A stretch of DNA of 64,000 nt, from assembly GCA_947561715.1 (NCBI GenBank), contig OX387199.1, positions 2,175,001 through 2,239,000 of the forward strand. Direction: 5' to 3'. Below are positions 16,144 to 46,526 of this stretch, in pieces. Source of the DNA: Ascidia mentula. Lineage: Eukaryota > Chordata > Ascidiacea > Phlebobranchia > Ascidiidae. The notes below the pieces were generated by a model that did no database searches, was not told where the DNA came from, and saw nothing but the letters and a program-made list of their open reading frames with translations. The position numbers and the translations under genes were made by a program. The stretch's first letter is position 1; each line of letters begins with the position of its first letter.

Positions 16144-16571
16144 TAGTGATGTCCTCCGCCGGATCCGGGTACCCGGACCCGGCCGGATATTGACCAATTT
16201 TTAATACCCGGACCCGGCCGGATAATACACTTAATTTTACCGGATAGTTGGGAAAGCATTTTTGTCCTAAAAACGGACAAACATTTCGCAAATTACTGAT
16301 ACTCGCCAACTTCCGTTTTTTCTGTTGTTTGTTGTTAAGGTTTTTCGTGACGTGTTATACCATATTAATAAATGACCACGTTTATTTGTTCCACTTATGA
16401 TAAGCTAACCTTAACATTGCATTCTGTTTGGCAATCAAACATTTTTGCCATACTGATAAAATACACGAATCGGTGTTAACAAACTGCCGGATCCAAATTA
16501 TCAGGCCGGATTTGATTGACAACTATCCGGATCTGGCCGGGCCGGATAATTTGGAACTGTGAACATCACTA
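16144..16571. mobile_element. Non-autonomous hAT-type MITE
   Basis: Terminal inverted repeats TAGTGATGTCC / GAACATCACTA are bounded on both sides by the identical 8-bp target duplication GTCGTGAC (16136-16143 and 16572-16579), the hAT signature. The 428-bp interior is CCGG-rich and non-coding. Confidence 0.75.
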
Positions 16572-16620
16572 GTCGTGACCCTAAAATGTTTGGAAACCAC
16601 TGGTCTAACATACAACTTAC

Positions 16621-16782
16621 TGGTTTCTCAAGTTGTGATATGGAATTTGCAATCTTACAGATTCCAACACTTGTCATCTTACAACTCCCCAGAGACAGAT
16701 TCTCCATCCAGTGAATACATGAAGCAATAGCAGATGCACTTTCATCATCAACTGTGTTTCTATCAAGATACAACGACGTCAT
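16621..16782 (-). CDS. Orphan LRR exon (type A, unit 1)
   Basis: A 162-nt phase-0 exon (TTTCAG acceptor, CCA/GTAAGT donor). It reads MTSLYLDRNTVDDESASAIA, then SCIHWMENLSLGSCKMTSVG and ends SISQLEKP. It is nearly identical to the exons at 28637-28798 and 29798-29959. It is intact but separated from the NLR NACHT exon by CSTF2 copy 2. Confidence 0.65.
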
Positions 16783-16888
16783 CTGAAACAAATGAAAAAT
16801 TCCTGGAATCAGTTTTTATGTCAACAATATCATTGCATCAATTATGACGTCTCAGAGACAGATCAATCACTTGGTAAATTTATTTGTT

Positions 16889-17881: not shown

Positions 17882-20800
17882 TCATGGCCTTCCTCCTTGC
17901 AACTGATCTTTGAGAGCAAGGATGCTGCGCCTCTGCTCATCTGGGAGCATCCGGATTTGTTCTGGAGTTAACTGGAGGACTTGCATGATCAGAGCGGCCT
18001 GGAAATACATGATGGCAAAATTTTAACCTTGTATCCTAATATATATTTGATTGACTTTTTAAGTGTTAAAAGTGAACGAAAACATTGACCACAAAACTAC
18101 ACATTTTATTCACAATTTGACCAAAGTTGTTTTTAGATTTGGGCATGTGTCTAAGATTTATTGTGGGCTGACTTTTTTGTACATATACAAATGCAGAACT
18201 TCAGTTGATGCAAAAAATATAAAACATCCATTCACTATTCATTTCCACAATAATCGAACTTCCGATTTGTATCACAATGCTACAACGAACCTTTTCCTGA
18301 TCCTGCTCTGCAGATGGATCCATAGGGGCGTCCTCCTGAGCAGGAGGAGGTCTTCCTCTTCTTGGATCGCTTCTTTCCGGTGGTGGCGGAGGGTGTCGTG
18401 CAGGATCCCCACGCATTCCTGGACGATCCATCGGAGGTCTTCCCCCACGATCCATCGGATGATCTCTTGGAGACAATCCTCGTTCTAGAGATGAACGCCC
18501 CCGATCATGTGAGTTACCTCGTTCTGGGGGCCCACGATCGGGAAAGCCCCGCTCATCTAGTGGCAAGAATTACAAGTTAACAGAATGTGTTAAAAACTGT
18601 AAGACCTGCAGACACCCTCTTGACGTTAGTGTCACAGTAGTCAGCAAAGTAATTGTAAAATGCACCAGAAAATAATTATATTATAATTATTATACTAATA
18701 ATTATACTGGTTGTGCAAAATTTGTCTGTGTATTTTTGACCTTCACATTTCTTAAACAAATGAAGACGAGAACTAATTGATTTTCACAACTAATCTCCAT
18801 GTAAGAATGTGGTCATTCTACCTCTTGGATTAGGTGGAAATCCTCGACCAAAACCTTCATCCATATGTGGTGGTCTGTGACGATCCATCGGGTCACCCAT
18901 ACCATGATCCACGGGCACTCTTTCTATAACCCGCATGTCCACCTCCATTCTTCTTGGACCTCTGAATTGTAAAATGTTTATTAGTTTTAAACATCATAGC
19001 ATGTTTTTGACAACAATTGAAAACTTTACAAAACAAGGGTGTTTCAACACAGGCAACATATTGTCTGCAAGTAAACATTTTCCATTGTCAATTTTATGTT
19101 TGCCAGACTTAATACAACCAATAGTTGATCAGTGTCCATGCAACTTCAACAAATTTATTGTTCATTTATGTCGGATATGAGCAAACTGGGGCCTTAGGTA
19201 AAATCACTGTTGGGTCAGGCTGCCATTTTTTGTTTGCTTTTCAGTTACAGCATCTGAGCATTAATAATTACAAGTCTGTTAGTTTATATATTGTTGTGTA
19301 AAATCTCTTTGCACACATTTACTCATGTGGTTCAATCCCAAATTTTTGATACTTTTTGGCCCACAAGCGGAAAAAGTTGCCCACTCCTACGTTCTTGTTT
19401 ATAAAAAATATCAAAAAGATACCATAGTAAAGAAGAGTACATATTTCTCAGGCCAAATAATGCCCTTCTATGTCCAACATAATAGCCCATGGAACATCCT
19501 TTGCATCAGCTGCATAGTATCACTACCAGATTAAACAGTTTAATTCCCACCTATCTCCTGGACCAACTTCCATTGGGTGCCCCCTACCAGGTGGGGGTTC
19601 TCTCATGCGTTCACCATCCCGGCCACCTCCGAGCCCAGGCAGTGGACTGCCATTGGGCCTTGCATCCTACAATCATTACAACAACTGGATCAATTAATGA
19701 AACAATTCATATAAATTAGTGGATAGCAATAATGACAAAATATTTCATTTCTTAAAAGCAAACACAAAACTTTGGTGACAAAAATTTGCTTACGGATTCT
19801 GGACGAGGACCTTCAGATGCTGGAATGAGAGGTTGAACTGGATTTTGTCTGTGCAGCATTTTCTACACGTATAAATAGTATTATCAGGCAAAAAAACAAT
19901 AAATGCACAATAACCAAAAATTTTTTCATTGAGACCTTTTAGGTCGAAACAGTGGCCATCTGTCTGCAGCTTATACACAGTTCATATTATTGACTTCACA
20001 TTGCTTATCATTTTTGTCATTGTTTCAACATTATAATTTTTTATTTCAATAAAATATTTAGTTCCTTCTTCTGATTATTTTGTTGGAGCTGTTTCGTTAC
20101 CATGGCAATTTCTGGATCCACAATCCTCATGACAACTTGAGCTTGCAACAACGCATATGCAAGTTGTGGGTTTTGAAGCAGCATGTTTCTGGCCTCTACT
20201 GGGTTGTTTTGAATGCATTGCTACAACAGTTCAAAAACACAGATTAGCAAAATCGCAATATTCCTACAAAATTCTCATGGATGTTTTGAAACATATATAT
20301 TCTAAGATTAATTCGGAAGAAAAACAACAACAAAATATGTTGCCTTCATTTGTTTCATGAGCTCGAACATTTGTTCAGGGGGGAGGCTTGCAACAGCCTT
20401 GCTGATAGCTTCTGGGGCATCTTGAGATGGAGTTGGTTCCCCGTATTCCGATTCCACTGGAGGACCCATGGCCCTGAAGTGGTTTACTTCTTCCTGTAAA
20501 CAAAACACAATGATTGGACATCATAAATATTGTGCTGATTTTGCTGTCAGGCACACTACAATTTAAACAGAACTCCTCTCCTGGCATAAATTAAAAAAGA
20601 CTGACATCACTGGTTATTTTCCCTTTTTCTCCCAAACAATTTTTGATCGAAATTGTTATTCAATGTGCATGGAAATTGAAAATGACAAGAACCAATGCAT
20701 TATATAGCTAAACATCTGGACAAAAACAGTCCAAATACAAAACAAGGTTAGGTAATATGTTCCTGAGACTACAAAAAGACAATCAGCACCAGTGTATGAT

Positions 20801-25897: not shown

Positions 25898-28800
25898 AGG
25901 GTTTGGCAGGTTCTGAAATCTCCCTTTGAAGTCGTAATCTGTCAATCCACGACTGACTAAAAGTTCATCTTGTATATTGTGAACACACTTGAGTAAGGTT
26001 TCTGCCGCATCACCATGTGTGTGATTGTATCTAACATTCAACTTCCTTATCTGGAAATAAAAGATGAAATTAAGAAATTAGTTCGGATAAATGTGACATT
26101 AAATGTTTAGAACAAATATAATTGCTGGTAAAATATTATGAAAAATCGACATATCGGGTCTCATCAGTGCAGCTATGGGTTAACCAGCCAGACATAGATT
26201 ATTCCATTTTGTGTGCAATACTGTCTGTAACTCACTGATCATTATTAGCTTTGCTTGTGCATACTTTTTTTTTACAAAAGCAGTGTTTTACAATTGCTTG
26301 TTTGTGTGATTGCGTTATCTTACTAAAAAACTTAAAAGTGTGTTTTGCGTTGGCACGTGCACCATAGTTTTCTTGCTTTTACTTTGGAAGATAATGCTTA
26401 AATATGGAGTCGAGTGGACGTGGAATCTCTGCTTGAACACCTGAATTCCATTAAAACGAGTATCGAGTTCACATTGGAACGTGAATACGTCAGGGTGATA
26501 TCATTTTTTGATGTTTCCATTTAAAGCGAGAACCGGGACCCTTCCGCACAACCGCATACTGGTAACTGACTCATTCCGACAGGTATCTCTCGTTTGGGTT
26601 CGCAAACCCCGTCGGCCACAAGCGTGCTGTAGTGCGTGCATTGTATACAAGAGCGGAAACCTTAGTTTCAGAGGAAGAGGCACAAAAACAGGAGGTTGGT
26701 AATGTGCAGAGTGTGCTTTTAGCAAATGGCCAAACTCGTTCCACTCAGTGGCGAAATTCCTCGCCTAAAGGTGACGAAGGGTGTGGTTGTGTTGTTATAT
26801 ATTTTGCAAGGCCTCCCTAGTGTTTGAACGCCTGCCTGTCAGACCGCGTGCTTTGGTTTCACATCTCAAAGATCGTACATGAGATGCGTTCGATGCTGGA
26901 GGTGTGACCGCATACCCTGTGCTGACTGCGACGGTGTATACATTGGCGAGACTGGCCGCGCCCGACAAACAACGTAAAAGAAACACAAACGCAACGTGGC
27001 CAACCGCGGTTACAGCGTTGTCGCAACTTGTGGCGGATACAGGTGAATTTGGAGAAACGACAGTTTTGGATAAAATAAAGATTATTTCAAACGGATGTTT
27101 ATCGAATAAATGTACCTGAATTGGCACTGAATGTTAAAAAGCAGACATTTTTTCCTTCAGTTTATCGGCACCTAGTGAACTTCCAAGGCATCGCAGATTA
27201 TAATGTTTTTAAATTACGCCATTTGCTTACATTCTGTTTGTTTTAAATTACGTCAATGAAAGTGTTGCAGCTTCTGCGATACACTAAATTTGTAAGTTTC
27301 GTGCACGAGCAATTGAAAGAGAAAAAATCTGGAACGTCATAGGCTTGACTCTGATTGTCCAGTGAGCTTGTGGAGATGTGTGGTTGTACGTTGATGCGCA
27401 TTTTCGGCTTGCTACTTCCCACCCCCAATTTATTATGTTTTTCGCGCTTTCTTATATTTTTCGTGTTGTTTACATTCACGCACTTTGTCATACAGAAGGT
27501 CGATTGCATGACGGCAAAACGTCGATTAAATAAATTTTACCGCAAAGTTCAAAAATTGATTAAATAATGCTTGAATATATTTCGAAAAAATTTTTTTTCA
27601 CTGAATACGACAAGACAAAATTCTTTGCAGACAAAGAATGTTTTTTTTCATATGAGTTTCCCAGCTAATAGAAATTGCTTGGTAGCGTGGGCCTCTTGTA
27701 CCCCTCTCTCTGTATACGACTATGCGTGTTGGTGTCATATGATGCAATATGGAAGGTGTCATCCCGAATTACACATGGCTCCAACTTAGTAACACGTTTG
27801 TGACTTTGGTCGCGGTTATATGCTTGGAATGCCACGAGACCCAATAAAATCAAATGGCTTATTAGAAGGAATAAACAAACTTATTTTTGAATTCGCCCTT
27901 TCAGGTTTTTTTATTGAGGGGAGTGTACAAATATGTTCAAAGAATATTCGTATTCGTATGTTGAGCTTTAGTATTACTGTTACTTGTGATCGAGCTTTAC
28001 AAACTACCAATGTCTCCGTCTGCCCTATTGTAACCGCGTTACGCTACCGAAAACTGAAACGCATCTTCAAACAGAGACCTTGTCACGCTTTTTGCATTGT
28101 AGGTGACGTCACTTTCAATCAAGTGCCAAACCACTTTCCGCTCAACAGATTTAAAATAAAATTTCTTTTTTTAAGAATTTGGTGCTGATTAGCGCAAGAG
28201 TAATAAAAATCGGTAGATATTTCAGAAAAAGCAAACAGCGTGAAAAGGCCGGTGTTTGAAGTTCTGATGAAATACTTCGGACTTTGAATACAACATTGTA
28301 ATTTGTGAGAAAATACTGCTAACAAATTTTCCATTAATACGATGTAACCTGTTGTAATACCAACCCAGACGAAGTTCGAATGATCGTGTTACAAGTTATC
28401 GTGAAATGGTAATCATTGGTGCGGAATGCTTTGGACTGTAAAACATTTTTTGATTCTGCCAGAATGACGATTGAAATTCAAACCAAGGTAGTGCAACCAG
28501 TACTTTTGTCTTACTTCGACTTTTTTTTTTTTTTTTTTAAACAGAATAAAGTTATGTGTGGTGAACGATTCCAGATTATCCAAATGTGTCGTGACCCTAA
28601 GAAGTTTGGAAACCACTGATCTAACATACAACTTACAGGTTTCTTAAGTTGTGATATGGAATTTGCAATCTTACAGATTCCACCACTTGTCATCTTACAA
28701 TAAGGCAGATACAGATTCTCAATCCACTGAATACATGAAGCAATAGCAGATGCACTTTCATCATCAACTGTGTTGTAATCAAGTTTCAACGACTTCATCT

Positions 28801-31800
28801 GAAACAAATGAAAAATTACTGGAATCAGTTTTACGTCGAACAATATCATTGTTATCAATTATGACGTCACAGAGGCAGAACAATCACTTGGTGAATTTAA
28901 TCGTTGAGCTCCGGTAGCTCAGTCAGTTAGAGAAAGAACCCGAATTACACATAACTCCAACTTAGTAACACGTTTGTGACTTTGGTCGCAGTTATATGCT
29001 TGCAGTGCCACGTGACCGAATAAAATCAAATGGTCTATCACAAGGAATAAACAAATTTATTGAAGATTTTCAATTGGCCCTTCTGGGGTTTAATAAAGGG
29101 GAATGTACAAATATTGCGTAGGAATTTTACTATTTTGTTATACCGTGATTGTTTGCCTTCACTATTTCTTCAATAAAATACGGTTGCGACTGTGTTACGT
29201 CAACTAAACTGAAACGCTATTTTGCGGTGGTGCGTGCGCCATACTTTTATTTGCTACCCATACTAACAAAGTTTTTTCAATATTATCTAACCTGTTATAA
29301 TATAAACCCAGAAGAAATTTAAATGTTCGTGCAAAAAGGTCATGTGAAATGGTAATCATTAGTGCGGAACGCTTTTGCCGATAAAACATTTTTCGATTCG
29401 ACCAAAAATGATGACAGATTTCAAACCAACGTAGTGTAACCAGTATTTTTGTTTTAATAAAACTTCTCCTTAAACATAATAAAGATAGGTTTGGCGAACG
29501 ATTCCAAATCATCCAAGTATGTCATGACCCTAAGACAGTGATTCCCAACCTTTTTGTGGTTGCGTACAACTTGGAGGTAAAACAATTTCGACGCGTACCA
29601 CCTAGTTGAGTGTTACAAAGTAACCTAGGGGATGAAGTAACAAACATTTTGAGATCACTTACGATTTTTTAAATTCGAAATATATCTGCAAATTACGGAA
29701 AGGTGCTCGCGTACCACCTGGAATGCCGTCGCGTACCACCGGTTGGGAAACACTGCCCTAAGAAGTTTGGAAACCACTGGTCTAACATACAACTTACTGG
29801 TTTCTCAAGTTGTGATATGGAATTTGCAATCTTACAGATTCCACCACTTGTCATCTTACAATACCCCAGAGACAGATCCTCGATCCACTGAATACATGAA
29901 GCAATAGCAGATGCACTTTCATCATCAACTGTGTTGTGATCAAGTTTCAACGACGTCATCTGAAACAAATGAAAAAATTGCTGGAATCAAGGTTTTTTGC
30001 CAACAATATCATTGTTATCATTTATGATGTCACAGAAGCAGAACAATCACTTGTTGAATTTAATCGTTGAGCTCCGGTAGCTCAGTCAGTTAGAGAAAGA
30101 ACCCGAATTACACATGGCTCCAACTTAGTAACGCGTTTGTGACTTTGGCCCCAGTATTACATTACCGAAATCGAAACGCATGTTTCACGGTTGTTCAACT
30201 GCTCAGATCTGAATTTTCATCAATGTTTTCATAAATTGGGACAAAAGAGCACAAGCTTGTGTAATTGTCAGTTGATTCTTAGATCAAATGTTTCCAGACC
30301 TCAAACACCGTTTCTCATGGTTTTCTTTAGTTTACAAAGTGCAAAATTTATCCTTGCAATGGCGTGTCATTACTGAACATGCTATTTAGTTTGGTTGAAA
30401 GGCTTATAAAGTTGCTGAGTAAAAGAGATGTGAAGTCATACCTTTTGTTTTACTGTGCCGACAACTTCTTGGATTGCAGAGTTACTGACATTTACCATAG
30501 TAAGTTCCAGTGTTGGAGGAAATAAATGTATGACACATGACAAAGCACAAGCTTCTTCATCACCATCCACTGTAAGCTGGTTTGGTACGAAATCAACCTG
30601 TATATGATAAACCAGGTTAGTTAAAACTATTTTAAATCATTTTTATTGGCAATTTAATCACCTGATAGCAATACAATGTACAACAAAAAGTTTCTTATTA
30701 TTGGATTAAAAATGTCTCATAAACTTCTTCAATACGCCTTTATAAAACAGTGCACCAGCATTTAAAACTTAAGGTTGTTAAATGTAAATAATGGCAAGTT
30801 TGGCTTGTATATGTTAAATATTTATTAGAATTCTGTAACTCATTCAACACGTTTTTTTTCAAACAACAATGCAAAGCCTTGTACCACATATACTTTTTAT
30901 TTGTGAAAACAAATACTTAGGAAATGATGAATATTTATTGCCATAAAAAAAAATTCTAAAAATGTTCAAACCTCGAATGCCTTTTGAATGTAGATTTCAA
31001 CAAGGGACCCAGGGTGCTCTAAACTCTAAAAGATAAACAGACAATGTTTTGTTGAATGCAAATTGAAATCTTGTGATCTGAATACACACAGCCACTACTT
31101 TGACCTGTAAGGTCTTATTAGTGCCACTAGGTGTGACCTATATACCAAAACAGTGGCCATCTGTATGCAGCTTACATATTTATAAAATTGGATCCATATT
31201 TGCTTAAATATATTATCTTAATTTGTGTGGAAGAAAATTGATTTGCGTGCACAGTATTTCTTAGAAGCAACAGGCTTTGGATCAATATAGTTTGTTGAAA
31301 GTGCTCCTAACATTTGGTTTCACGTACATGGCCAATACCAGTTTCTAAGATTTGGGTGTTACTGATATTTTATTCCTTCTTTACGTTGACACAATTGAAC
31401 AATTACCTGTAGTGCATAAGGAAACAGATCAATCTTCCCGCAAGATTTAATTCCATTCTCTGATACTCTAAACTTTGTTACAATCAGCTTGTTAACATGT
31501 GATGCTGCTTGATTTGAAAGCAATTGCAGAAGTGAATTTGAAACTTGATTTCCACTGATATCCAGAGTCTCCATCTATATTATTAATAATATCTTAGTTT
31601 CACAAAAAGAATGAACTGTGATGGTGATGTGTTTTTCATGTCTTTTTTATTATAGTTGGATGACTTTAAAATGTCTGTTTACCCAACCACAAAGTCACAG
31701 AAAAAACAAATGTTCACTAAAATCAGAAACATACATGATGTTGAGATTTTGATGGAAGCAGCAACAACTTTACACATTCTGGAGTCGGCAATCTGACAAC

Positions 31801-34800
31801 CAGCTGAATGTGAATATTACCAAAGTAAGTGCAAGGACCTGCGCAGTAGGGCGATCCTGCCGATCATGACATTGCATAAAATATTACTGTGTTGTCTGAT
31901 ATGGTGGTAGAGATCCCCTACGTATATGTGAATGTAGTTCCATTTTCAAACACATTGCCAAAATGTGCAGAGAGCAGAGACTTACCAAACTACCACATGT
32001 ATGTTTGTTTTTTTGAGATCCATTTCCATTTAGAGAAATTTCCCCCGAAATTTGGACCCCCCCAATTAGGGTTAACACTATGACATCATGATGGGACCAC
32101 ACCCCCAGTGATTATGAAACCTGGCCCCTTTGCATTTTGCCGCAAACCCTCTAACAACACTTTGCGGAAAATTAGGAACCATGGGCATAAACTTTATTCT
32201 ACTTCAGATATATCAAAATTCTCTCTGTCTGGTTTTCTTTCTCGTATTATAACTGGTCCACAAAAAATACATACCTTATGTTTTATTGCACCGACAACTT
32301 CTTGGATTGCAGAGTTGCTGACATTTTCGATGGTAAGTTCCAGTGCTGGAGGAAATAAATGTATGACACATGACAAAGCACAAGCTTCATCATCACAATC
32401 CACTGTTAGCTGGTTTGGGATGAAATCAACCTGCAAACAATCAAAGAGGTCTGGTGGAGTTTTGGGCAATTACCACTAGATAGGTAAATTGAACCAGTCA
32501 CAAAAAAGAACAACCTTATTCTTAAATATTAAAAAAATAAATACATTACAGTTTATTTAAAAATTTGGAAATAAAAATTTATCACATGAACTTTTTGTGG
32601 TGTAATTAAAATTATTTGTTTACAGCTAACGAACATTATAAGAAAAGATCAAATTAATGAACATTTTCGAAACTATAAAACAACAATCTTTCCAAACCTC
32701 AAATGTGGATTCAATATACTTTTTAACCAATATTTCTGGCTCCATTGAACCCTGAAAAATATTTATTTAGCACAGCATAAAAATGAATGTTGGACAGAGA
32801 AGCAACGATTTCTTTTAACCATCAAGACAACAAACATTTTTTATACTACATGCTTTTACTGACATGGTCATACTATAATCACGTAATTGTAGAATTGGAT
32901 TAATAAAATAAATTTTCATGAAAAAAATACTCACCTGGATTTTTTTGAGAAAAATATATTCCTAATAATTGTTGCACATTTTGTTTGATTGCAATGTCAC
33001 TTTACCTTTATTATATCTGGAAATACATCAACTTTTCCACAGGCTCCAATACCTTTCTCTGATAATTTGAACTTTGTTACAATCAGCTTTTTAAAATGGT
33101 TTAGCAGCAATTTTAGACAAGATATTGAAATTGGAAGTCCGCTGATATCAAGAGAGTCCACCTAATTAAAAAACAACAAACGTAAAAATTTAAATGAACA
33201 TATTTTTTGTAGTGCATAAGGAAATATTTTTTTTAACTTACTGGTTGATCAAGCTTGGATATAGTTGTTGCAAGTTGTGTCATTGAAGTACAGCTTACTT
33301 TGCAACCATTTAATGAGAGACTTTTTGTAACTTTTGCACATGAAGCTATTGCATTTGCACTTTCATCACCAACTGTGAAACCTCTCAGCACCAGTGACCG
33401 CAACTAGAATATTGTGGTTATAAAGTACATGTACACAGTAGTGTAGCACAAAAATATAATTTAGAACAAAACACAAGAAAGTAATAACTTTGTACATCAG
33501 TAGCAATTGCATTTATGACAAAATCAGATAACTTTGTTGTTTACAGGTTTAAACTTATGTTCAATATGACCATTCAATGTAGATAAAGAGCTAACATAAT
33601 GTATTATGAAATGCATTGTAATTGAGGTATTTCTTAGTAATAGTTAAAACTACAATATGATGTATCTCAAACCTACCTGAAAACTAGTTCACTTACTTTT
33701 GTCTGGTCAGTTGGTGTAAAATGTTTAGCAAATCTTTTAATAAATTCATCGACTGATTCTTCTTTCTGGGTATCAACTATTAACTGTCCCTTAATTCCTG
33801 AGCAAGTTTTGGCCAAATCCTTTATTACTTGAACAGTCACTTTATGACTGATTAAGAAGTCCTAGCAATAATAAAACAGAGTTTACTCATTTTTTAAGAT
33901 TATCTCAGATTTTGTTGCTTAAGATATTATCATACCTGAATATTGTGGCTTGTTTGATTTAACAAAACTTCAAAACTTCCATGATAAAACTTACAACTTT
34001 TTGACACTTGAATGTTATGAGACTTTTTTGTATCACTAAATACACAACCAATGCTGTAAGCATCAGTTGGAAGTATCTTTCCAGTTAAAGTAAATGTTTC
34101 TGGCAACAGATGAAGATTGTCTGTGTAAAATGTTGCATCATCAACTTCATGTAACCATGAGCAAATTTGCAAAAGTTTTTTTCCCTCAACTTCAGCATTT
34201 TGTAGTTGGTCATGGCAGAACTCCTTGAGTAGGTTTTTCTTTTCAGTCAATTCTTTACACTTTATGTCACTGAAACAAACTTTTGCAACTTCACTAACCT
34301 TGTCATTGCAAAGACCAAAAACAAACTTTGCAACAACTTCCCATCTGTTTGTTTTAAGTTCGGGAAGTATTTTGGAAAACTCGTCAACACTTGCAAAAAA
34401 GAAAAGGTAACAAGCAGCGAAATATTCCTGCCAAATCAAATGTGAGAAGTTGCTCATGATTGCTGAATCCAAAAACGTCATGTTCCAATTCTCTTCAGTG
34501 ACAAACGTGGCTAGAAGCCCCCTTAATTTCTTTGGCACAATTCCTACCTCTCCCAGGTCATCAGAAGTAAAAACAAGCTTCTGATTCTTAAATCCATTCC
34601 ATGCTAATCTAGCTATTTTGTTTAAATATTCTTCTTCCTTAATTTCTGTTTCTTTCCCCCTAATAAAGTCCTGCCTAAAATAGAACTTGAATCCATTTGC
34701 AAAAACATGAGTAACAGAGTGAAATCGACCGTCACCACCCTCTTTGAGACTTTTCCAGATGACGAAAGCAATAAAAATGCACTTTGCTGGAACGTAGCAA

Positions 34801-37800
34801 GAATATGAAAAGTTTGGATTGCCTTTTATTACATTCCACACATCAGCACCATTATCTCCACAAATCTGCTTGCAAAGATTTTTTTGGGATTTTTCATTAA
34901 GACCCATAACCTCAGCAACAAATAATGGTCGGTGTTTTGCATCAATTGAGAAAAAGTGCTTCTGTCGGGAAGTGAAAAGTTTTTTTGCATTTTGAAGCAA
35001 TTCACCCCTCAAAAGAGCATAAATATAAAGCAAAGGGTTGTTTTTTTCGTGAGCATCCACACTTTCATATTCTAAGTCCCAATCAGCTGCAGCTTCATCG
35101 AGGCCATCCATGGTAATTAACACATTATTGGAGTTTTTTAAAAAATTGTAAAACTGTTTTTCTTTGGTTTTTGAATCACTTATGATAGACTCACTCAAGG
35201 AATCAGATTTCAACGAATATTTAAGCAAAAACCTTACAAAGGTTGTGGCGGTTTTAAAGTTAATATTTTTCACAGAAATGTAGAAACAATATTGGGTTTT
35301 ATTAACATTCTCCATTCCACCATCCATTGCTTTTTCAGTTATTACTTTGGATAGTGTGGTTTTCCCAACCCCTGGTTGGCCAATTAATGCTGCAATGTTT
35401 GCAAATCGAGGCTGGTTTCTACCTTTTGCTGCTGTTTCGGCTCTTGCAAACAGTTCCTCAACTGATACTTTACTGTCGTGTTTTAAGTCTATTCTTTCAT
35501 AATCTTGACTCCTGTTGTAATGTCCATCTTCATCACTGTATTGTGGGATGACTGTTTTCTTTCTACGCTTGTTTGGAGGTTTATAACCAATGGGGTAAAC
35601 TGCTTTAGATGGTTGATCTGTTATGTCAAGTGGACAAACTTCAATTTGTTGTTGAGTTAAAGTTAGAAAACTCTTTGTTTGACAGTGATCTTTGGCTGCT
35701 TCAAGCAATAATTTTTCCATGCGACGTTGCTCTTCTGAAATAAAGTTAAACTTAAAGTTTGGCGATGGTAATAACAACAAAGTAGCTTGGCATTATGGTT
35801 GATGAGTTTGCTTTTATGGGATTTTTGAAGTTAGCTCAACCTCTTATTTAATTTTAATAAACAAATGAAGAAAATTTGATCCACAATTAAAAACATTTTC
35901 ATTTCAAATAACTTGATTGATTTGTATGTGAAACTGGAACTATTATTTGGATTGTTAAGAAACCTAACCCAGATCTTCCACAACGAAAGTTTAAAGGTGA
36001 AAGATAACACACAAAAACTTTGACACAAGTATTATTGCTGCATTTACAGTTTCTCTATAAATATAACATGTTAACAGAATTTGCACATGTTACATGTCTA
36101 AGAAAAATAAACTGACAAAATAAATGATAAACAAAAACATGGATTAACACACTAAATATTATTTCAAGGATAGCTTATTCAACTATCAGTTGATTTATAA
36201 ATAACTAAGCAACCAAAGAAAATATTCATTTTAAGCCATACAGCTATCAGGGAATTAGGACAGTTATTAACTGTTTATCAACACATTACAAACTTGTCAC
36301 AACAAAGTCTGGCCATTTTTCATACTACTTACCCTGGCTGAGATCACCAATTTTGTTGTCAATTGAAGTGTTCCCATAATTGTCTGCAATATTTAATGTA
36401 ACTTTATAAAACCCAAAACAGAGTTACTTCCTTACTTGTAACAAAATCTCGACCTGCTGTGTTAAATGTGTTTCCTGCTACAGTACTATCAGATATTTCT
36501 GTAAACAAAAATATTAGTAAAATTTTGAATAAGGACAAACTATTTGCATATTACCTGTTTTGTTAGAAGAAAGTTTTGAGTTGCCTTGTGTCTATAAGTG
36601 CATTTTTTTTCATTTCGAAAGCAGTCATACACAAATTTAAACTTACATTATTTTGAGTATCTTGGGCCTGGCCTCGACTTTGTACTGCTTTGTCTTCTTT
36701 TATAAACAATCCTTCATTTGATACTTTGTTGTCTTCCTTTACCGCAATTACCGCAGAATTCAGCCTTTTATTGGAATTGGAATTTCCATTTCCGCTGCTA
36801 TCTTCTGTCAAAAGCAAAAAAATAACTTCATCGAACTGTTTGCAAACCCTGTAGCAAAGTTTATATCATGACCTTTACACAGAAATCTGGGAATATTTTT
36901 TGAGATTCGTTTGCTTTGTTCATACCTGATTGTTGTGGAGTTTGCTGCCCAATGTCTGGTGGATGAGGATTTCTATCCGATAATCTTTGGGTATTATCAA
37001 CATATGCTGAGGAAGTAGATTCAATGCTTGGAATTCTATCAACTTGCATTGTTAAGGAACGTTGCTGGTTTCTAGAAAATGGAATGTAGAAACATATTTT
37101 TACCAAATACAACAGCAACTTACCTTGGACAAACACCCTGGTTGCCTACATTTGATTGCGTTCCATGATTATACGCACTTGTTTGACAAACAGATAAAAA
37201 ATCCGGATTCTGAGAAACTGTTGATTGTTGAAAATACCCCGATGATTGACGTTTGATATCAAGCTCACTGTGAGAATTATAACCTTGGAGAAGGATTGGA
37301 TTGCGGACATACCTCAAAGCAGATGTGTGAGATTGAGGTGGGACATTGCCATGTTGCGCAGAGGAAGGTGGAACTACTTGTTGCAAAACATCAACATAGT
37401 GAGGATTTGTTTCTTGCTGGAAACTGTTTTGAAAATTATGGAATAGTGGAAATCTTGAAGATTGGTTGAAGGAATGCAGAACATTGTTTGGGGGAACTGC
37501 TGAAGATTGCTGATACAATCGTTGATTTGGAACTTGGTAATTGTCAGGACCACTCAGGTAATTTATTGCACGCTGCAACAACATCAGAATATTGTCAAGT
37601 ATCAAAACATAACATGGTTGAAAGCATAATTCACTTTCTTGCATTTGGAAGTCTAAACCCGTAACCTAACATTTGTGAAAAAACATACACCACAAAATCA
37701 GCAATGCTCAATTGCATGGAATAAACCTCAATGTGAAATTAACACAGTCCTACATTTCTCCTAAAAATATGAAACTGTAGATGGATAAAAAGAGATAATA

Positions 37801-40734
37801 TTAAACAAAACACATTTTTTGACTTATGTTTGTTGTGCAAAAAAACTCTGACACATGTTATGTAATCACTGGCAACAAATTAAATTGTTGAAACACATTA
37901 GGACTATGTTGCGTTATCATGACATTATATTTAAATGCATGAAAAGTCATTTTTAAAAGTATATAACCTTTGCAATAACTGTTTAAATGCCATTGGCTTA
38001 TGACCTCCAGATAATAGCTAACAACCCCAACACTCATGGGTGTGAAAACAACTCATACGATAAAAAAACACCTTTATTAGAGATAATGTATTAAAATCCC
38101 AAAACAGCGATCTGTAGACAGCTCAGATCGATTTATTGAGAGAAAAATATATTTCGCCTAAAACGGCATCATCAGTTTCTCCATTTACCAAAACTGCCAA
38201 AAAGGAAAAACAGAAAGGAAAAAGTCAAGAATCTAACGCAAAAAGGTTACGCAAGCTAAAAATAAATAAAAATTAATAAAAACTATAAAAATATTCGGGT
38301 TTCAAGCATTAACTAAAAAATTAGAGAAAGTTACTTTGTACAAAGTTTACCTGGTTGGGTTGCTGGGGTATTTGTGGGTGTGGAAAGTATTGGGTTTGGT
38401 TGAAAGCTGGTACATTGGTTGCCTGTGGGATTCCTTGACCTGGTTGTGTTGACTGAAGATTATAAGGTTGTTCACGATGGGAATTCCCCCATGCTTGTGG
38501 ATATTGTTGGTTATAGAATGGATACCTCCCACCATAATATTGGTTCGGTAAATATCCTGTGGGATTAGGGTAAGGTTGTTGGGGTTGAGAAGTGTATCGT
38601 GTGTGGGGATGCCCCAATTGTGATGGATGGCTTTGAGGTGTTGTATAAAGATGAGATGTTGACGGTACACTATGATAATGAGAGGTTACATCCTGGTTGG
38701 GTTGCCAAACAGTGGATTGCTGGGGTATTTGTGGAAAGTATTGGGTTGGGTTGAATACTGGATTGGTCGCCTGTGGGATTCCTTGACCTGGTTGTGTTGA
38801 TTGGGGATAGTAAGGTTGTTCTGGATGGGAATTCCCCCTTGTTGGAGGATAGTGTTGGTTATAGAATGGATAACTCCCACCATAGTATTGGTTCGGTAAA
38901 TATCCTGTGGGATTAGGGTAAGGTTGTTGGGGTTGAGGAGTGTATTGAGGGTGGCAATTCCCTAATTGTGATGATTGGCTTTGAGGTGTTGCATGAAGAT
39001 GAGATGTTGATGGTTTACTAAGATGTTGAGAGGTTACATCCTGGTTGAGTTGCCAAACAGTAGATTGCTGGGTTATTTGTGGGTGGGAAAAACTTTGGGT
39101 TTGGTTAAAAGATGGTACATTAGTAGCCTGTGGGGTTCCTTGACCTGGTTGTGTTGATTTTTGATTGTTTGTTTGCTCAGCATCAAACAGTGAAAACGAA
39201 CCCTGCAACAACATACAGTCTCATAAAAAGGTTTTCATTATCAGAAGATTTTAGAACAAAGTGACAAGGCCTTGTTTCCATTGGGACACTCAATGTTAGT
39301 TTCTACAAAATCTTTCATAATGATGTATTGATGTCCAGCAAAAATGTTCATGAGCATAATTACCACAAATAATGTTACTGACACAAGCACAAGTAAAATA
39401 GTGACAAAGTGGCAACATGTATTTCAAGTAGTCACACATACAAAGGCTGGAGAATTTTACAAGATGGAGTTTCACCAAAATGCCTCTGTTGGTGCTTTCT
39501 TGCTCACATTAATAACACATAAGTTAACATCCTGAACATGAATTGTTACAAATTATGAAATGTCACAAAGCATTACAAAATATTTTCAATTGGGCCTTTC
39601 TTATTATTTGCTGAAACTCTTACGACTCCAGACCATTTCCACAAAACTGGCTCTAGAATCCGAGATTTTGGAGTAAAAATAACAATTTTGCAACACTTTC
39701 TATTTCTTAAATATATAAATTAGAGCTGTTACAGCTTGCTGTGAACGGTAGTTCTCTACTTGTTTGCCTTATACCAATAGGACCTTTTACAACTTTTTTC
39801 AAACAACTAAAATTTTTGTGGGTATGGTTGCAAATGAAATACTCCGGCCTACTTATAAGGTGTAATGGATAGATTTAGGGTGTGTCACAAAAATTATTGC
39901 TATACCATTCGCTTGTGTTTTTTTCACTATCTCTAAATTTAAAATACTCACAAGCTTGTTTTTTATTCTGAGTAGCTCAAATTTTAATCAAAAAAAGTGC
40001 TATAGGACGCATATTGGTGTTTCTATGAAAATTAGTTTTGGTGCTGGAAAATGCGCAAAAAAATCGGGCTGTATTTGTGGAAAAATGAATCGTTTAAGTG
40101 TCCAATCATTTGTGATTTTATGAAAGATCCATCTCATAACTACAAATTTTGATCGAAATTAGTCTACGAAAAAATGGTTTAGCCACCCCCCTAGGGCCAT
40201 TTGCCCCCCTGGTTACTCAATATTTTGGTTAAATGAGCAACAAAAAATGGAACTGGATTTTGCAGAAAAATGAATCGTTCAACTACCCACTCATTTGCAA
40301 TTTTTTTTTGTAAGTTCCATTCTCTATGCGATGGCATCAAATTTATTTGCTGAAAAAGTGTCAAAGCCCTCCCCCAAGGGCTGGGTATACCCCCCTGTTG
40401 GTTATATGATCTTCCCGGAGGCCCAACAAGTCCTTGCTCTGTACAGTCTCATCCAGGAGCAAAATTTTGTTTTTCAACTTAGTAGAATTTTAGGTCCCTA
40501 TGTAAGTCACAAGACCCATCAACGGTCATTGGGAAACAAGCGGAATAGTCGCTAGATGCATTACAGCCGAGGGCCTTGAAAACAGGATTTCTCCAATTTA
40601 ATACCCATATAGGTCCTATAAGTGTGCTCATACGAAAAATTTTAACTTTACCAAAAGCATGTGAAGTCCTGCCATACCTGGTTTGCTTGGTACTGATCAT
40701 TGTTTGAACTTCCCTGTTCATAATTCCTATCCAT
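25898..40734 (-). CDS. NLR protein: low-complexity (prion-like) N-terminus, NACHT ATPase, LRRs
   Basis: Predicted cytosolic innate-immune sensor. Exons: 40734-40678, 39202-38351, 37572-37124, 37071-36926, 36804-36647, 36591-36555, 36498-36436, 36383-36333, 35734-33936 (NACHT), 33861-33697, then LRR exons 33403-33242, 33161-33006, 32751-32698, 32430-32275, 31574-31407, 31025-30972, 30597-30442, 29959-29798, 28798-28637 and 26050-25898. That is about 1720 codons with no frame break, and a TGA directly precedes the ATG. Residues 1-604 are Q/P/N/S/Y-rich with a 116-119-residue repeat. A basic KRRKK lies at 660-664, Walker A GQPGVGKTT at 723-731, and Walker B MDGLDEA near 813-819. The NLR helical motif FSHLIWQEYFAA follows. 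LRR exons are phase 0. Exon 1 to NACHT is well supported; the 3' end (last exon and stop) is unresolved, and the exon at 25898 may not be the last. Confidence 0.8.
26946..28636. other. Intron or spacer with repeat-body fragments
   Basis: No exon could be supported. Contains another copy (about 27770-27900) of the element body found in the LRR cassettes and a 15-T run near 28526. Confidence 0.4.
28906..28948 (+). repeat. tRNA-like SINE head
   Basis: Third copy of GAGCTCCGGTAGCTCAGTCA..., beside the LRR exon at 28637-28798. Confidence 0.4.
29536..29755. mobile_element. Non-autonomous hAT-type MITE (CAGTG family), intact
   Basis: Ends CAGTGATTCCCAACC / GGTTGGGAAACACTG are terminal inverted repeats. 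The identical 8-bp target duplication CCCTAAGA sits at 29528-29535 and 29756-29763. It is 220 bp and non-coding, and inserted just 3' of an LRR exon. Related copies lie in the lipoxygenase locus. Confidence 0.8.
30069..30111 (+). repeat. tRNA-like SINE head
   Basis: Fourth copy of the same head, beside the LRR exon at 29798-29959. Confidence 0.4.
31095..31174. repeat. Inverted pair of degenerate hammerhead motifs
   Basis: On the minus strand (31099-31123) CTAATAA-GACC-TTACA-GGTC-AAAG decays CUGAUGA...GAAA. On the plus strand (31125-31174) CTAGGTG...ACCAAAACAG...CTGTATGCAGCTT matches the 3' half of the complete motif at 21172-21224. Lies in an NLR intron. Confidence 0.45.
31736..31806 (-). 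pseudogene. Broken LRR exon (type A) in the NLR gene
   Basis: Minus-strand GCQIADSRMCKVVAASIKIS aligns with LNGCKVSCTSMTQLATTISK of exon 33403-33242 and is followed by T/GTATGT. The first LRR half is missing; a piece of the dispersed SINE (GACCTGCGCAGTAGGGCGAT) begins just past it. It sits exactly where a type-A exon would be expected in a duplicated A-B-C-D cassette. Confidence 0.4.
38140..38181 (-). ncRNA. Hammerhead-like motif with short palindromic stem III
   Basis: Minus strand: GAGAAA - CTGATGA - T - GCC GTTTTA GGC - GAA - ATATAT - T - TTTCTC. Stem I strands pair fully (GAGAAA/TTTCTC). Stem III is a 6-nt self-complementary ATATAT, as in dimeric hammerheads of Penelope-like elements. 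One extra T precedes stem II, so activity is uncertain. Lies in an NLR intron. Confidence 0.5.
38351..39202 (-). repeat. Coding tandem repeat in NLR exon 2 (116-119-residue unit)
   Basis: Two full units (about 39157-38801 and 38800-38453) and a partial third (38452-38351). Each opens STQPGQG-PQATN and contains PQQPYPNPTGYLPNQYYGG and YPFYNQ. The first unit of 119 residues holds 22 Gln and 19 Pro and only a handful of charged residues. Confidence 0.85.
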
Positions 40735-43090
40735 TCAGGTTAATGTATATCAACAAACATGACCATATTTGACTGAATCCAATCACAAAAGGGCAACATA
40801 TGATGCATGGCAACTGAAATCAGTGTTATGTCCATTATTCACAAGAGGTAGGAAACAGTCCGAAGGCAACAGTTTTTCACATTCGACTACATTTCATTCA
40901 ATTGCTTTTAACTTTAAAAAAACTAAAATAACATACAAAACAGCATTAAAAAACAAAACACAGTTTATAAACATTATGTGTCTTTGGAAAATAGAAATAA
41001 AACCATACAGACCACGAAAGGGCGCAAGGGGGGTGTGGTTGGTATTTGTCCAATTAAAGAAGGTTCTTAGTTTTTTTAGAAGGCCAAATTTGATTTTATT
41101 CCATAGCAGGAGCGTGAAAGGTTGTTGGTTCAGAAGGATTTCATCTGCATACGTTTGTGCAAGGTTTTATGGCCGAAATGTATTCAAAACATGGGAAAAT
41201 AAGGGGGGTATGGTTTTTGTTTTGCAAATTTGACAATCTTCTTGTTTTTTTAGAAGGTCAAATTTGGTGTTCTTTGATAAAAGGATTTCATAGGCAAACG
41301 TCGTTGCTTAAGAGTTATGCCATAATACGCATATGATATTCATAACCAATTATGAATATGTTTTTTTTTTTCATAATTTTGGTATCGTTAGAAAGGTCAG
41401 CCTATGAACTTTTACGTGTAAAAAAATCATGCTGCTACCTCATAGGGCGGCCGAGTAACCCGCATTCAGAGTTTTGTTAACTGGCGATTTCTTTTTGTCA
41501 ACTAACATCCCTCTGGTCACACAGCAGTGACAGCACCCCTTATCTAACATGTCAACTCTCGATCACATTTACATTAATTGTCTTTTCACAAAACATCACA
41601 ACAGGAATACTAACTTACAACATATCTGATCATATGCCATTATTAGCAGTAGTACACATCACAATCACACACAAACCATCGAAAAAAGTACATATTATGC
41701 TAAATCGCGAAAAGAGGCTCATGTTCACTGGGCGATTTGGATGACGTCAGCCATCTTATTTTTAAATCTGTTAATTGCATGTTGTAGAGCATTAAATTTC
41801 CGTTCTCTTGATATTGGTCAATATTGGCACCTATTACCACAACGCTGAGCAGACTTATTTGAATTACGCATGTACCGACATGTTTATTCGAGGTACATAA
41901 GGATAGAACATAGAATGACGACACAATGGGCGAATAAGCCACGAGGGAAGGAGAGTGAAAGAAAAAAGGCAATCTGTCCGGTTCGCTATAGGAGCGCAAA
42001 GGGAACGGTAAACGTAGTGAGAGAGACAGCTACGCCACTGTCATTTCGGAGAAATATTTTTTTTCAAAGAAATTAATTTCACGCAAGAGTAAAAACAACT
42101 TTAAAGGATTTATCATAAACAATACACAAGTATACACATCAATTAGAACACAACGACTATCCAAAAACAACAAATGTAAAAATGTAACTTTAACACTGTA
42201 AGGTTTGGACCTCACCTCACCCCGATTAAACAGTTTATTATCAGGCTGTGGGAATAAATCCCAAGCCGGCGAATAGCTTGTAGAGTCTCAGTAATAATAC
42301 CAGTGTAACAGTAATGCTTTTGAACAAGTAGAATAGAATAGAATGGAATCAAATAGAATCAAATAGAATCAAATAGAATCAAATAGAATCAAATAGAATC
42401 AAATAGAATCAAATAGAATCAAATAGAATCAAATAGAATCAAATAGAATCAAATAGAATCAAATAGAATCAAATAGAATCAAATAGAATCAAATAGAATC
42501 AAATAGAATCAAATAGAATCAAATAGAATCAAAATAGAATGAATTTACAGGTACACACTGGGCTTTAAAGCTCTCCATACTGAGAGCTGATTGGTCAATA
42601 ATGTCACGTGATATCATGAGGCGCTTGAAGTAATATAACAAAGAACATAGGTGTGATGTGACATAAGCATAGGAGAACATTTTATGTGGTAAACAGGATG
42701 TTGAATGAATCACTTTACTCGAGAATATTCGATGGCTAAACCATTTGGGTCACATTATGGGATTATGCAGGACATGTGCAAAGCTGCGCGCAAAGCATTA
42801 CGCAATTCAAGCACTTGTTTCTGTGACGTATGTTACAACACCACCATGTTATTAATTCTGACTAATTTTTGTCCATACAAGGTATTGCAGCGTACCAATT
42901 GATTCCTTCAGCTTGCTGCTTTGCTGAAACTAAAGTCTGCAAGGCTTAGCTCCGCCTGCATCCATTCTGTCTAGTGTTCCAGTGTTGAATTGCAGGAAAC
43001 ATGCGCCGTGGTCAGAACTAGGCCAGGGAAAACATGCGTGTTGCCACAGTATATAGTGAGGCAGCAATACGAAAATTTGGATGCGAGCAT
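40735..43090. other. NLR upstream region; no gene recognised
   Basis: No supported coding exon. Includes an imperfect direct repeat (around 41055-41090 and 41235-41270: TTTTTTTAGAAGG(C/T)CAAATTTG) and the decamer array listed below. No clear TATA box was seen near the NLR start. Confidence 0.4.
42351..42530 (+). repeat. Decamer satellite (AAATAGAATC)18
   Basis: Eighteen uninterrupted perfect copies of AAATAGAATC, with degenerate units on both sides (42329-42350 and 42531-42541). It follows a repeat-like segment, so it may be the simple-sequence tail of a retroposon. Confidence 0.95.
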
Positions 43091-43114: not shown

Positions 43115-44020
43115 GCTAAATTATAAAGTAAATCCTGTTTCCCATAGTTAGTTTCTGCTGAAGTTACCTGATGTTCTTCTTTAAAAGCGGTTCGTATGGA
43201 CAGCATGACCAAAGGAAAGTAATAATACCATTCGTCGTTGTGGGTAACTGCTTTTTTTGTTGAAAGCTCTTTTAATTGTTCGATTGTTGTTTTTTTTCCA
43301 CCAATCCATTTGATTGAGGCCTAAACGTCGTGGATGTGTTAGTTTTGATTCCCAAAAAGTCCATGGTAGCTTTCCATTCTTCAGAGGTAAATTGCGGACC
43401 CCTGTCAGTGGAAATAGTGTTTGGAACACCAACCATATTAACCAATGCAATAACATGAACGCGTCCGATAAAGTTTGTGTCTTGGTGTCTTTGAGGTGTA
43501 TAGCCACCGGAACGAATATGTAGGCAAACCCTGCACTCAGTGGCAAAGGTCCAGCCAAATCTGTATTTACATGCTGGAACTTTGAGGAGACTGGAGGATA
43601 ACGCGTGAATGGAGTGACACTGTGCCTTGCCGTTTTGTTTCTCTGGCATGTATAGCATGATTTTTCCTATAACTGAACATCTCGTCTCAGACCTGGACAC
43701 ACAAATCTGTCATAGATTTGTTTGTGTTATTTTAGGCCCTGGATGCCCCAAATTGTGTATAGCATCGAAAACATCCTTGTGAAGTCCTGGAGGAATGACT
43801 GGTCTGAAACTTCCTTCCTCCGAATCATTTCCTAAAATTATTTTGACCGAATTTGGTATTTGTTTGTGAACGAAATTGTTGTAAATCCCTGTAGTTAGTC
43901 TTCACCATTGTCATAATACTTTTGTTGCAATTCTATCTGTTTCCAGTCGATTAGGGCTGGCATGATGGAATATAGCATTTATTTGCGGACGTGACAATGC
44001 ATCAGCAACCTTATGTAGTT
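43115..44020 (-). pseudogene. Decayed Ty3/gypsy-type retrotransposon pol fragment
   Basis: Minus strand shows, in order, an RNase H end (VADALSRP, about 43986-44010), a degraded H2C2 zinc finger (CYTCQRNKTAR region near 43640) and an integrase core (STDRGPQFTSEEW and FRPQSNGLVE, about 43280-43430), spread over different frames and broken by stops. No reverse transcriptase, gag or LTRs were recognised. It is a dead fragment. Confidence 0.7.
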
Positions 44021-45484: not shown

Positions 45485-46067
45485 TTTAACTTGTTATCAC
45501 TGGAACCATAACCACTCTCAATTAAAGAAACACTACAACTACGACGTTATTTAAACATATTTTTAACGCGTAGAAAGCATTCTTAAGTCATCAATTGTAT
45601 TTTAGTCCAAAGCATTGCATAAAAAAATTGACAGACCGTGTTTATTTGTAGAAATAAAACAATTTAAATTAAACTGATATTAAAACATTTTTCTGTTTAG
45701 TGTTAATGCAATTCTTACAAAATCATGTGTTTAGTGTGTTTACAGTTTGCTGTAAAGTCCCCATTTGTGTAGTCTTCTTTTATTGCTAGTCTTTTGGTAA
45801 ATAATCGATCTTCAACTGCTAATTTGGGATGATTTCTATTTCGTTTGTTATTAATAAGCGCCATCTTTGTGTGACGCAATACAAGTTATTTTCTGATCAG
45901 CTGACCAACCTGTGTTGTAAGTTTCTGAATCATAACGTCGCGTTAAAACTTTCTTTTCCAGTATTGCTCGGAGTTTATTTGCTGGATTGATATTTTACTG
46001 TTGCCTTTTTTTGCTGCAAAATTGTTTGAAGTTATTGGTGTACGTGTGTATCTTCATAAAAAAGAAA

Positions 46068-46526
46068 ATGGATATCATAATAAAAGATGTTATTAACCCG
46101 GATGAAATAATGAAATTTGAACAAAAGTACAAGAAAGAAGAAGCAATGGGTTGTGTATTGCCTGAAACACAGTTTGAGTATGCCTGGTGTTTGGTGAGAA
46201 GTCCCTATGTTGACGATTGGAATACAGGCTTTGAACTTCTGAAAAGTTTATATGATTCCGGAGATGACATGGCCAAAAGGGATTACTTGTACTACATGGC
46301 AATTGCCAAGTTCAAGATGAAAAAATATGAAGATGCTTTGAAATACTGTGACGGTATACTTAAAGTGCAACCCCAAAATCACCAGGTCAAACAACTAAAG
46401 TCCTACATTGAAGGCAAAATGAAAAAGGAAGGACTACTTGGGATGGCAGTGATTGGTGGAACAGGTTTAGTGCTGGGAATAGGTGCAGCGGTTGTTGCTG
46501 CGTTGGCAGTTTCGTCAAGAAAATAA
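46068..46526 (+). CDS. FIS1: Mitochondrial fission 1 protein
   Basis: FIS1 is a tail-anchored outer-membrane protein of mitochondria and peroxisomes that takes part in organelle fission. The single exon gives 152 residues, the same length as the human protein. Matches include TQFEYAWCLVRS, a TPR-like stretch RDYLYYMAIAKFKMKKYEDA followed by LKYCDGILKVQPQN, and the motif KKEGLLGMAVIGG leading into a Gly/Ala-rich transmembrane segment (about residues 125-146) with a short basic tail SSRK. The ATG in AAAGAAAATGG is the first in frame with the conserved N-terminus. It is intronless, unlike most animal FIS1 genes. The next gene, SYAP1, starts 574 bp downstream on the same strand. Confidence 0.95.
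   Translation: MDIIIKDVINPDEIMKFEQKYKKEEAMGCVLPETQFEYAWCLVRSPYVDDWNTGFELLKSLYDSGDDMAKRDYLYYMAIAKFKMKKYEDALKYCDGILKVQPQNHQVKQLKSYIEGKMKKEGLLGMAVIGGTGLVLGIGAAVVAALAVSSRK

Follow-up and report, generated by a model that had tools for sequence, protein, structure and literature searches.

A short, putatively homotypic signaling motif precedes NACHT in a family of Ascidia mentula NLR genes

Gene structure and domain content of the NLR locus

What takes the place of a folded adaptor when an animal NLR carries a long, low-complexity N terminus in front of its NACHT domain? The question is raised by a minus-strand gene of the ascidian Ascidia mentula lying in the window, that is, the whole 64,000-nucleotide stretch of DNA analyzed (C52:2175001-2239000); the genome searched for relatives comprised 196 Mb on 79 contigs. 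The gene was read as a chain of nine exons (40734-33936) flanked by AG/GT splice sites, with the reading frame preserved across 8/8 junctions and 604 residues, stop-free when joined, preceding the NACHT exon. Exon 1 (40678-40734; MDRNYEQGSSNNDQYQANQ) contains the start codon and ends in phase 0. Exon 2 (38351-39202) is Q/P/Y/N-rich, contains a tandem repeat (QYYGG, YPFYNQ), and encodes a probable disordered tether. It is followed by a Q/N/S-rich exon 3 (37124-37572), a low-complexity exon 4 (36926-37071), and a low-complexity but more charged exon 5 (36647-36804), which are 85, 96, and 85% identical, respectively, to their counterparts at one paralogous locus, L030; exon 6 (36555-36591; TQGNSKLSSNKT) has the same sequence there. 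Exon 7 (36436-36498; EISDSTVAGNTFNTAGRDFVT) and exon 8 (36333-36383; NNYGNTSIDNKIGDLSQ), both phase 1-1, encode the two halves of a short motif termed type A below; the end of exon 8 is fixed at 36333, as the frame is lost if the exon is shortened by a single base. Exon 9 (33936-35734) encodes a linker, NACHT, winged helix, and HD2 as assigned with Pfam, its 3′ end being placed by eye from the donor site at 33936 and taken as 33938 in computations. Further 3′ on the same strand, translation revealed a phase 0-0 exon 10 (33697-33861; DFLISHKVTVQVIKDL..., bounds by eye) and, also by eye, two LRR-like exons at approximately 33243-33405 (LRSLVLRGFTVGDESANAIASC...) and 33009-33163 (VDSLDISGLPISISCLKLLL...).

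Searching with the exon 2 protein returned 25 matches at 17 places, 16 on C52 (including the window) and one on C69. At 16 of these 17 places, window included, a related NACHT exon follows on the same strand after 0.5-2.6 kb, as scored within 4 kb from 51 of 95 and 43 of 73 NACHT matches, more of which could only raise the count. Seventeen loci were extracted, 16 for the non-window Q-exon places and L045 for a NACHT match. In 16/17, about 600 residues of the NACHT exon could be aligned, in the same orientation as the Q exon wherever the latter was present; in L038, the exon is reduced to a 106-residue fragment. The NACHT frame of L029 is interrupted by one TGA, and this copy may be a pseudogene. 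At least 29 genomic NACHT matches share 61% identity or more with that of the window, 27 of them on C52, with the next listed at 36% (among the best 73 of 335 candidates). The closest named protein is an NLR of Phallusia mammillata, P0002 (1021 aa), with 49% identity and the same layout: a 298-residue Q/N/P/S-rich N terminus, beginning MERN as compared to MDRN in the window, in front of NACHT. When a long query was used to look for relatives that have the N terminus attached, eight proteins were returned, P0002 being the only close one.

The exon chain is more than a chance arrangement, since exon 1 recurs as a separate upstream exon at 6 of 17 paralog loci (L029, L030, L033, L037, L041, and L043; tblastn E ≤ 0.001), exons 3-8 are present in L030 at 82-100% identity, and the pairing of Q exon and NACHT is repeated at nearly all places. 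At the level of sequence, the low-complexity exons and NACHT form one fused gene. The preliminary description had joined eight exons of about 604 residues in phase to NACHT and had called for a search for the same fusion in relatives; the splice sites and frame at all eight junctions uphold the former, and the paralogs and the single Phallusia protein share the layout. That an NLR gene and an adjacent gene for a low-complexity protein were read as one might be suspected from a predicted model in which the NACHT exon begins 753 bp past the start of the motif core, but the compatible junction phases, the pairing repeated among paralogs, and the presence of both parts within P0002 make this highly improbable, and it was rejected.

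The product of the gene is an NLR from an expanded group of paralogs, with NACHT, winged helix/HD2, and C-terminal LRRs. Exon 9 matched the Pfam NACHT model above cut-off (E 7.3e-16), as well as NLRC4_HD2 (E 2.9e-5) and NOD2_WH (E 0.0043), both under their curated cut-offs, and the LRR-like exons lie 3′ of it. In the AF2 model of P0002, NACHT and LRRs are confident, the C terminus shows the alternating strands and helices of an LRR-like fold, and the whole matches NOD2 and NLRP3 structures. No Pfam model for CARD, PYD, DED, or Death matched the window product or P0002 at E ≤ 10, and P0002 residues 1-298 are disordered in the AF2 model (pLDDT about 27). A hidden death fold was rejected on these two grounds, in agreement with the preliminary description, which had seen none in the N terminus.

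Other features were observed in the window. A FIS1-like gene is encoded on the plus strand at 45936-46526 (Fis1_TPR_C, E 2.2e-21). Overlapping minus-strand open frames at 43181-43709 resemble a broken retroelement integrase by eye, one frame of which returned nothing from Pfam at E ≤ 0.1, and a satellite-like run with a 10-bp unit (TAGAATCAAA) occupies 42340-42530. At 5275-5781 and 18063-18569, separated by about 12.8 kb, both strands contain open frames that are nearly identical between the two sites, probably a segmental duplication. LRR-like exons far downstream on the minus strand (16501-16815, with an LRR_6 match at E 0.0007, under cut-off, and 28511-28858) are perhaps parts of other NLR genes.

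The low-complexity N terminus

The Tyr/Gln-rich repeat had been taken in the preliminary description to suggest self-assembly rather than a folded adaptor. Extended to the whole tail, this idea holds that the Tyr/Gln-rich low-complexity N terminus itself drives condensation or aggregation and that the short motif is merely a linker. The composition is in keeping with it: the 604 residues contain 15% Q, 10% N, and 6% Y (25% Q+N), QYYGG repeats exist, and the N terminus of P0002 is likewise Q-rich (26.5% Q+N). Density, repeat structure, and constraint argue against it. Under the classical rule, a Q/N-rich prion domain has at least 30 Q/N in 80 residues; the maximum is 27 in the window and 26 in P0002, and a strict domain of this kind was rejected. 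The QYYGG/YPFYNQ element of exon 2 is a 348-bp tandem repeat of 2.2 copies, and the open frame of the repeat exon differs in length among paralogs. Ka/Ks between the window and L030, a single pair for which exons 3, 5, and NACHT were covered and exons 2 and 4 left out, was 0.68 for exon 3 and, near neutral, 1.06 for exon 5, as compared to 0.34 for NACHT. Other NLR clades, moreover, carry the motif before NACHT at places not matched by the exon 2 search. Assembly driven by the tail itself is, in our estimate, unlikely, although the tail may contribute to it.

The approximately 570 residues before the motif look like a weakly constrained disordered tether. Assembly in preference to a folded adaptor is still the best reading of the N terminus; QYYGG/YPFYNQ as the element that assembles found no support, given its tandem-repeat nature, variable-length frame, Q/N density, and weak constraint.

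The motif exons among paralogs and elsewhere in the genome

Directly before NACHT, exons 7-8 encode a short glycine/valine/asparagine motif, and a motif in this position was recognized in 16/18 loci (the window plus 17). Four sequence types were distinguished. Type A occurs in eight loci (the window, L030, L031, L032, L034, L035, L036, and L044) and has 14 invariant alignment columns across the eight sequences. Type B (e.g., KIDGSIIGVVGDVNVN) occurs in L037, L041, and L042, with a similar sequence in P0002; type C (e.g., NIQDSIVGAQTANLI) in L029, L033, and L043; and type D (e.g., NISGKLIGNQNLYTAKHIN) in L039 and L045, the homology of A and D to B and C resting on short alignments made partly by eye. 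The motif was recognized neither in L040 nor in L038. Among 34 motif-exon entries from 24 loci, a phase-1 acceptor is available in 31 and a phase-1 donor likewise in 31, with 28 entries having the two together, as counted with permissive site rules and with alternative sites available for several entries. B/C-like peptides share S[IVA][IVAL][GD][VIA] (15/15), followed by G[DN]V in 12/15.

G, N, S, V, I, Q, and T make up 64.5% of the motif peptides and proline 2%; charged residues, at 16%, speak against an amyloid-motif reading. Amyloid signaling grammars, in the available part of PMC8086366, are dominated by glycine, V/I, and Q and describe beta-arch motifs of roughly 20 residues, and the composition of the ascidian peptides is broadly as that account describes. 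No Pfam or NCBIfam model supported an assignment: Pfam was blank for six of seven motif peptides and returned a weak DUF720 match for the seventh. A PDB sequence search with the motif gave nothing meaningful, and a protein search for NACHT carriers of an L047 motif (region 1-46) gave six candidates, none at E ≤ 10.

Motif types do not always follow the receptors that carry them. In the NACHT tree, for which L029 fills 36% of columns, the window (type A) pairs with L042 (type B) with support of 100/99. DNA from 35747 to 33001 of the window matches L042 at 92.9% identity, and the identity to L030 over 35679-33224 is 80.5%; farther 5′, 38066-36074 is 87.2% identical to L030, with only a 203-column match in L042. 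The window and L042 thus share NACHT at 93% DNA identity and differ in motif type, which indicates that the cassette was swapped, with a recombination breakpoint interval in intron 8 (35747-36074) between a 5′ side like L030 (87%) and a 3′ side like L042 (93%). Motif swaps are real but few: mapped on the NACHT tree, all labels require nine changes (minimum 5), near the shuffled mean of 10.4, and type A alone is clustered, with three changes versus a shuffled mean of 6.4.

Five motif queries matched 74 distinct places genome-wide, 36 on C69, 16 on C52, 14 on C70, 7 on C2, and 1 on C71; overlapping matches of different queries were counted once, six second-exon rows were omitted, matches up to E 10 were kept, and the counts are incomplete, as the window's own copy is absent from the type A query matches. 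A reversed-peptide control with a single peptide gave no matches versus 42 for the forward peptide. Compared to the 95 and 73 NACHT matches listed, 20/74 places are followed on the same strand by a NACHT match within 3 kb (351-852 bp away); within 3 kb upstream, or on the opposite strand, there was no NACHT match for any of the 74. The other 54 are without NACHT among the matches listed, most of them known from the motif match alone.

Eight motif places outside the clade were read. Four are NLR contexts: the motif precedes the NACHT P-loop in L046, L047, and L055 and, in L052, the pre-NACHT flank of the L047 clade. One follows LRR exons and a ZU5 domain, one precedes a TPR-like ORF, and at two (L051 and L053) the context was not recognized. 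The recurring element, across paralogs and near other NLR clades, is the exon 7-8 motif rather than the QYYGG repeat. All 36 places on C69 lie at 16.8-21.3 Mb, perhaps a large NLR cluster; the two read there, L047 and L052, represent an NLR clade with pre-NACHT sequence like DFYKGIDPKK.

At C70:2148400-2154800 (L050, L048), LRR exons are followed by ZU5 (E 6.9e-7) and then by a motif exon, with the UPA portion assigned by eye, and we infer that LRR, ZU5, and motif belong to one gene. NACHT was not seen in the DNA extracted at this locus. A genome-wide ZU5 search returned five matches, the C70 locus not among them. The surrounding region, C70:2.1-2.5 Mb, holds 11 motif places, of which 10 match the query at 77-100% identity. 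At L054, the motif stands in phase before a TPR-like single-exon ORF of about 258 residues. The TPR-like family has at least 150 matches, mainly at C2 0.18-3.05 Mb and also at C69:19.3-19.6 Mb, inside the motif region; motif matches adjoin only two of these ORFs (C2:2.611 and 2.688 Mb), which are 98% identical to each other, and none was seen by eye in about 1 kb of DNA upstream of each of four other copies (L057-L060). As a general partner, the family found no support. In known fungal systems, the receptor has a cell-death effector as its counterpart, and the two carry matching motifs. No such effector was found among the eight places read outside the clade, and no execution domain was recognized at the ZU5 locus (L048) or in the TPR-like ORF (L054).

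The distribution of the motif bears on whether its exons are merely structural, that is, a short pre-NACHT cap or packing strand behind a non-signaling N terminus, with any partner binding NACHT or the LRRs. A fixed place beside NACHT within the clade is what such a segment would show, as is a short sequence without a Pfam model. The departure of motif types from the NACHT tree in places and the related motif away from NACHT, after ZU5 and before the TPR-like ORF, fit it poorly, and in P0002 the motif falls in a low-confidence stretch with no packing on NACHT predicted. We consider a purely structural role improbable. Considerably less probable is that the motif descends, with divergence, from the RHIM of the metazoan RIPK pathway. 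Some copies do contain a short G/V/Q sequence (SIVGVQGDV) in an immune receptor, but the RHIM tetrad, [IV]Q[IVL]G, is present in 0/25 motif peptides and the Pfam result gives no help; RHIM was rejected on the tetrad.

Proposed signaling role and relation to known systems

The exon 7-8 element is most likely a homotypic, possibly amyloid, signaling motif on a disordered tether. The more specific reading, in which a short non-RHIM beta-arch-type motif on mostly phase 1-1 cassettes replaces the role of CARD, PYD, or Death with a disordered tether in front, seems to us about evenly balanced between right and wrong. By analogy, such a motif would bind homotypically, adopt cross-beta structure, recruit partners, and have an immune output. 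A ligand would act via the LRRs, and NACHT oligomerization would bring the motifs together and concentrate them; clustered motifs could then form a small cross-beta seed by stacking, to which partner proteins with the same motif type would be recruited. The disordered tail would serve as a spacer or solubilizer. A swap of motif type would provide a new partner with the sensor kept, and the ZU5 locus may represent a second route of exposure, with the motif at the C terminus like CARD in NLRP1. If the motif assembles, a plausible missing adaptor would be supplied, and close paralogs with a common NACHT-LRR chassis and different motif types would be a natural test of modular rewiring. The broadest proposal, that ascidian NLRs use a non-RHIM signaling amyloid, that symmetric recombining cassettes rewire the partner, and that the cassette replaces CARD in a FIIND-type NLR, is more tentative and in our view somewhat more likely wrong than right, the lack of a NACHT in the DNA extracted at the C70 locus counting against it.

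To our knowledge, a signaling amyloid on an animal NLR has no earlier case, and this would be the first, if true; among titles and abstracts, most subscription papers aside, none is reported for an animal or tunicate NLR. The ascidian motif resembles those of fungal NWD2/HET-S, PP, and sigma and of bacterial BASS in being short and N-terminal to a nucleotide-binding domain, in being rich in glycine, V/I, and Q/N, in having several sequence types, and in the occurrence of a related motif in other gene contexts. It differs in its animal host, in its position after about 570 disordered residues rather than at the extreme N terminus, and in its mostly symmetric exons; unlike in those systems, execution proteins such as HeLo or BELL were not found here. 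In fungal NLRs, as described in the available portions of PMC5485727 and PMC7889193, the N-terminal motif folds upon receptor activation and templates the effector motif, and the likeness points to possible signaling of the fungal kind by some animal receptors. Signaling amyloids are, in the accessible text of PMC12881547, far commoner in fungi and bacteria than in metazoans, for which RHIM is discussed. With the RHIM of RIPK1 and RIPK3, the ascidian element has in common a short assembly-type motif in immune proteins, and it departs from them in the tetrad.

The C70 locus is comparable to NLRP1 and CARD8, in which FIIND (ZU5-UPA) is followed by CARD, in its succession of LRR exons, ZU5, and a further downstream exon; unlike in NLRP1, that exon carries the amyloid-like motif in the place of CARD, and the extracted DNA shows no NACHT. 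A FIIND-type NLR has ZU5 and UPA after NACHT-LRR and undergoes autoproteolysis; of these features, ZU5 was matched at the C70 locus. Fusions of ZU5 and FIIND to TRADD-N domains in animals are mentioned in the part of PMC8195603 available.

With vertebrate NOD2, NLRP3, and NLRC4, the ascidian receptors share NACHT, winged helix, HD2, and LRR, and they differ in that no CARD, PYD, BIR, or Death was detected and that the N terminus is disordered with a short motif. Ascidian NLRCs without an N-terminal domain have been reported, according to the accessible part of PMC11508797. Folded Death adaptors may serve other NLRs of the same genome. None of the 17 Death matches listed genome-wide falls on C52; two of the 17, at C72:18269216-18269377 and 14513015-14513194 (-), are followed on the same strand by NACHT matches, 2.2 and 4.8 kb downstream, and may belong to classical Death-NLRs.
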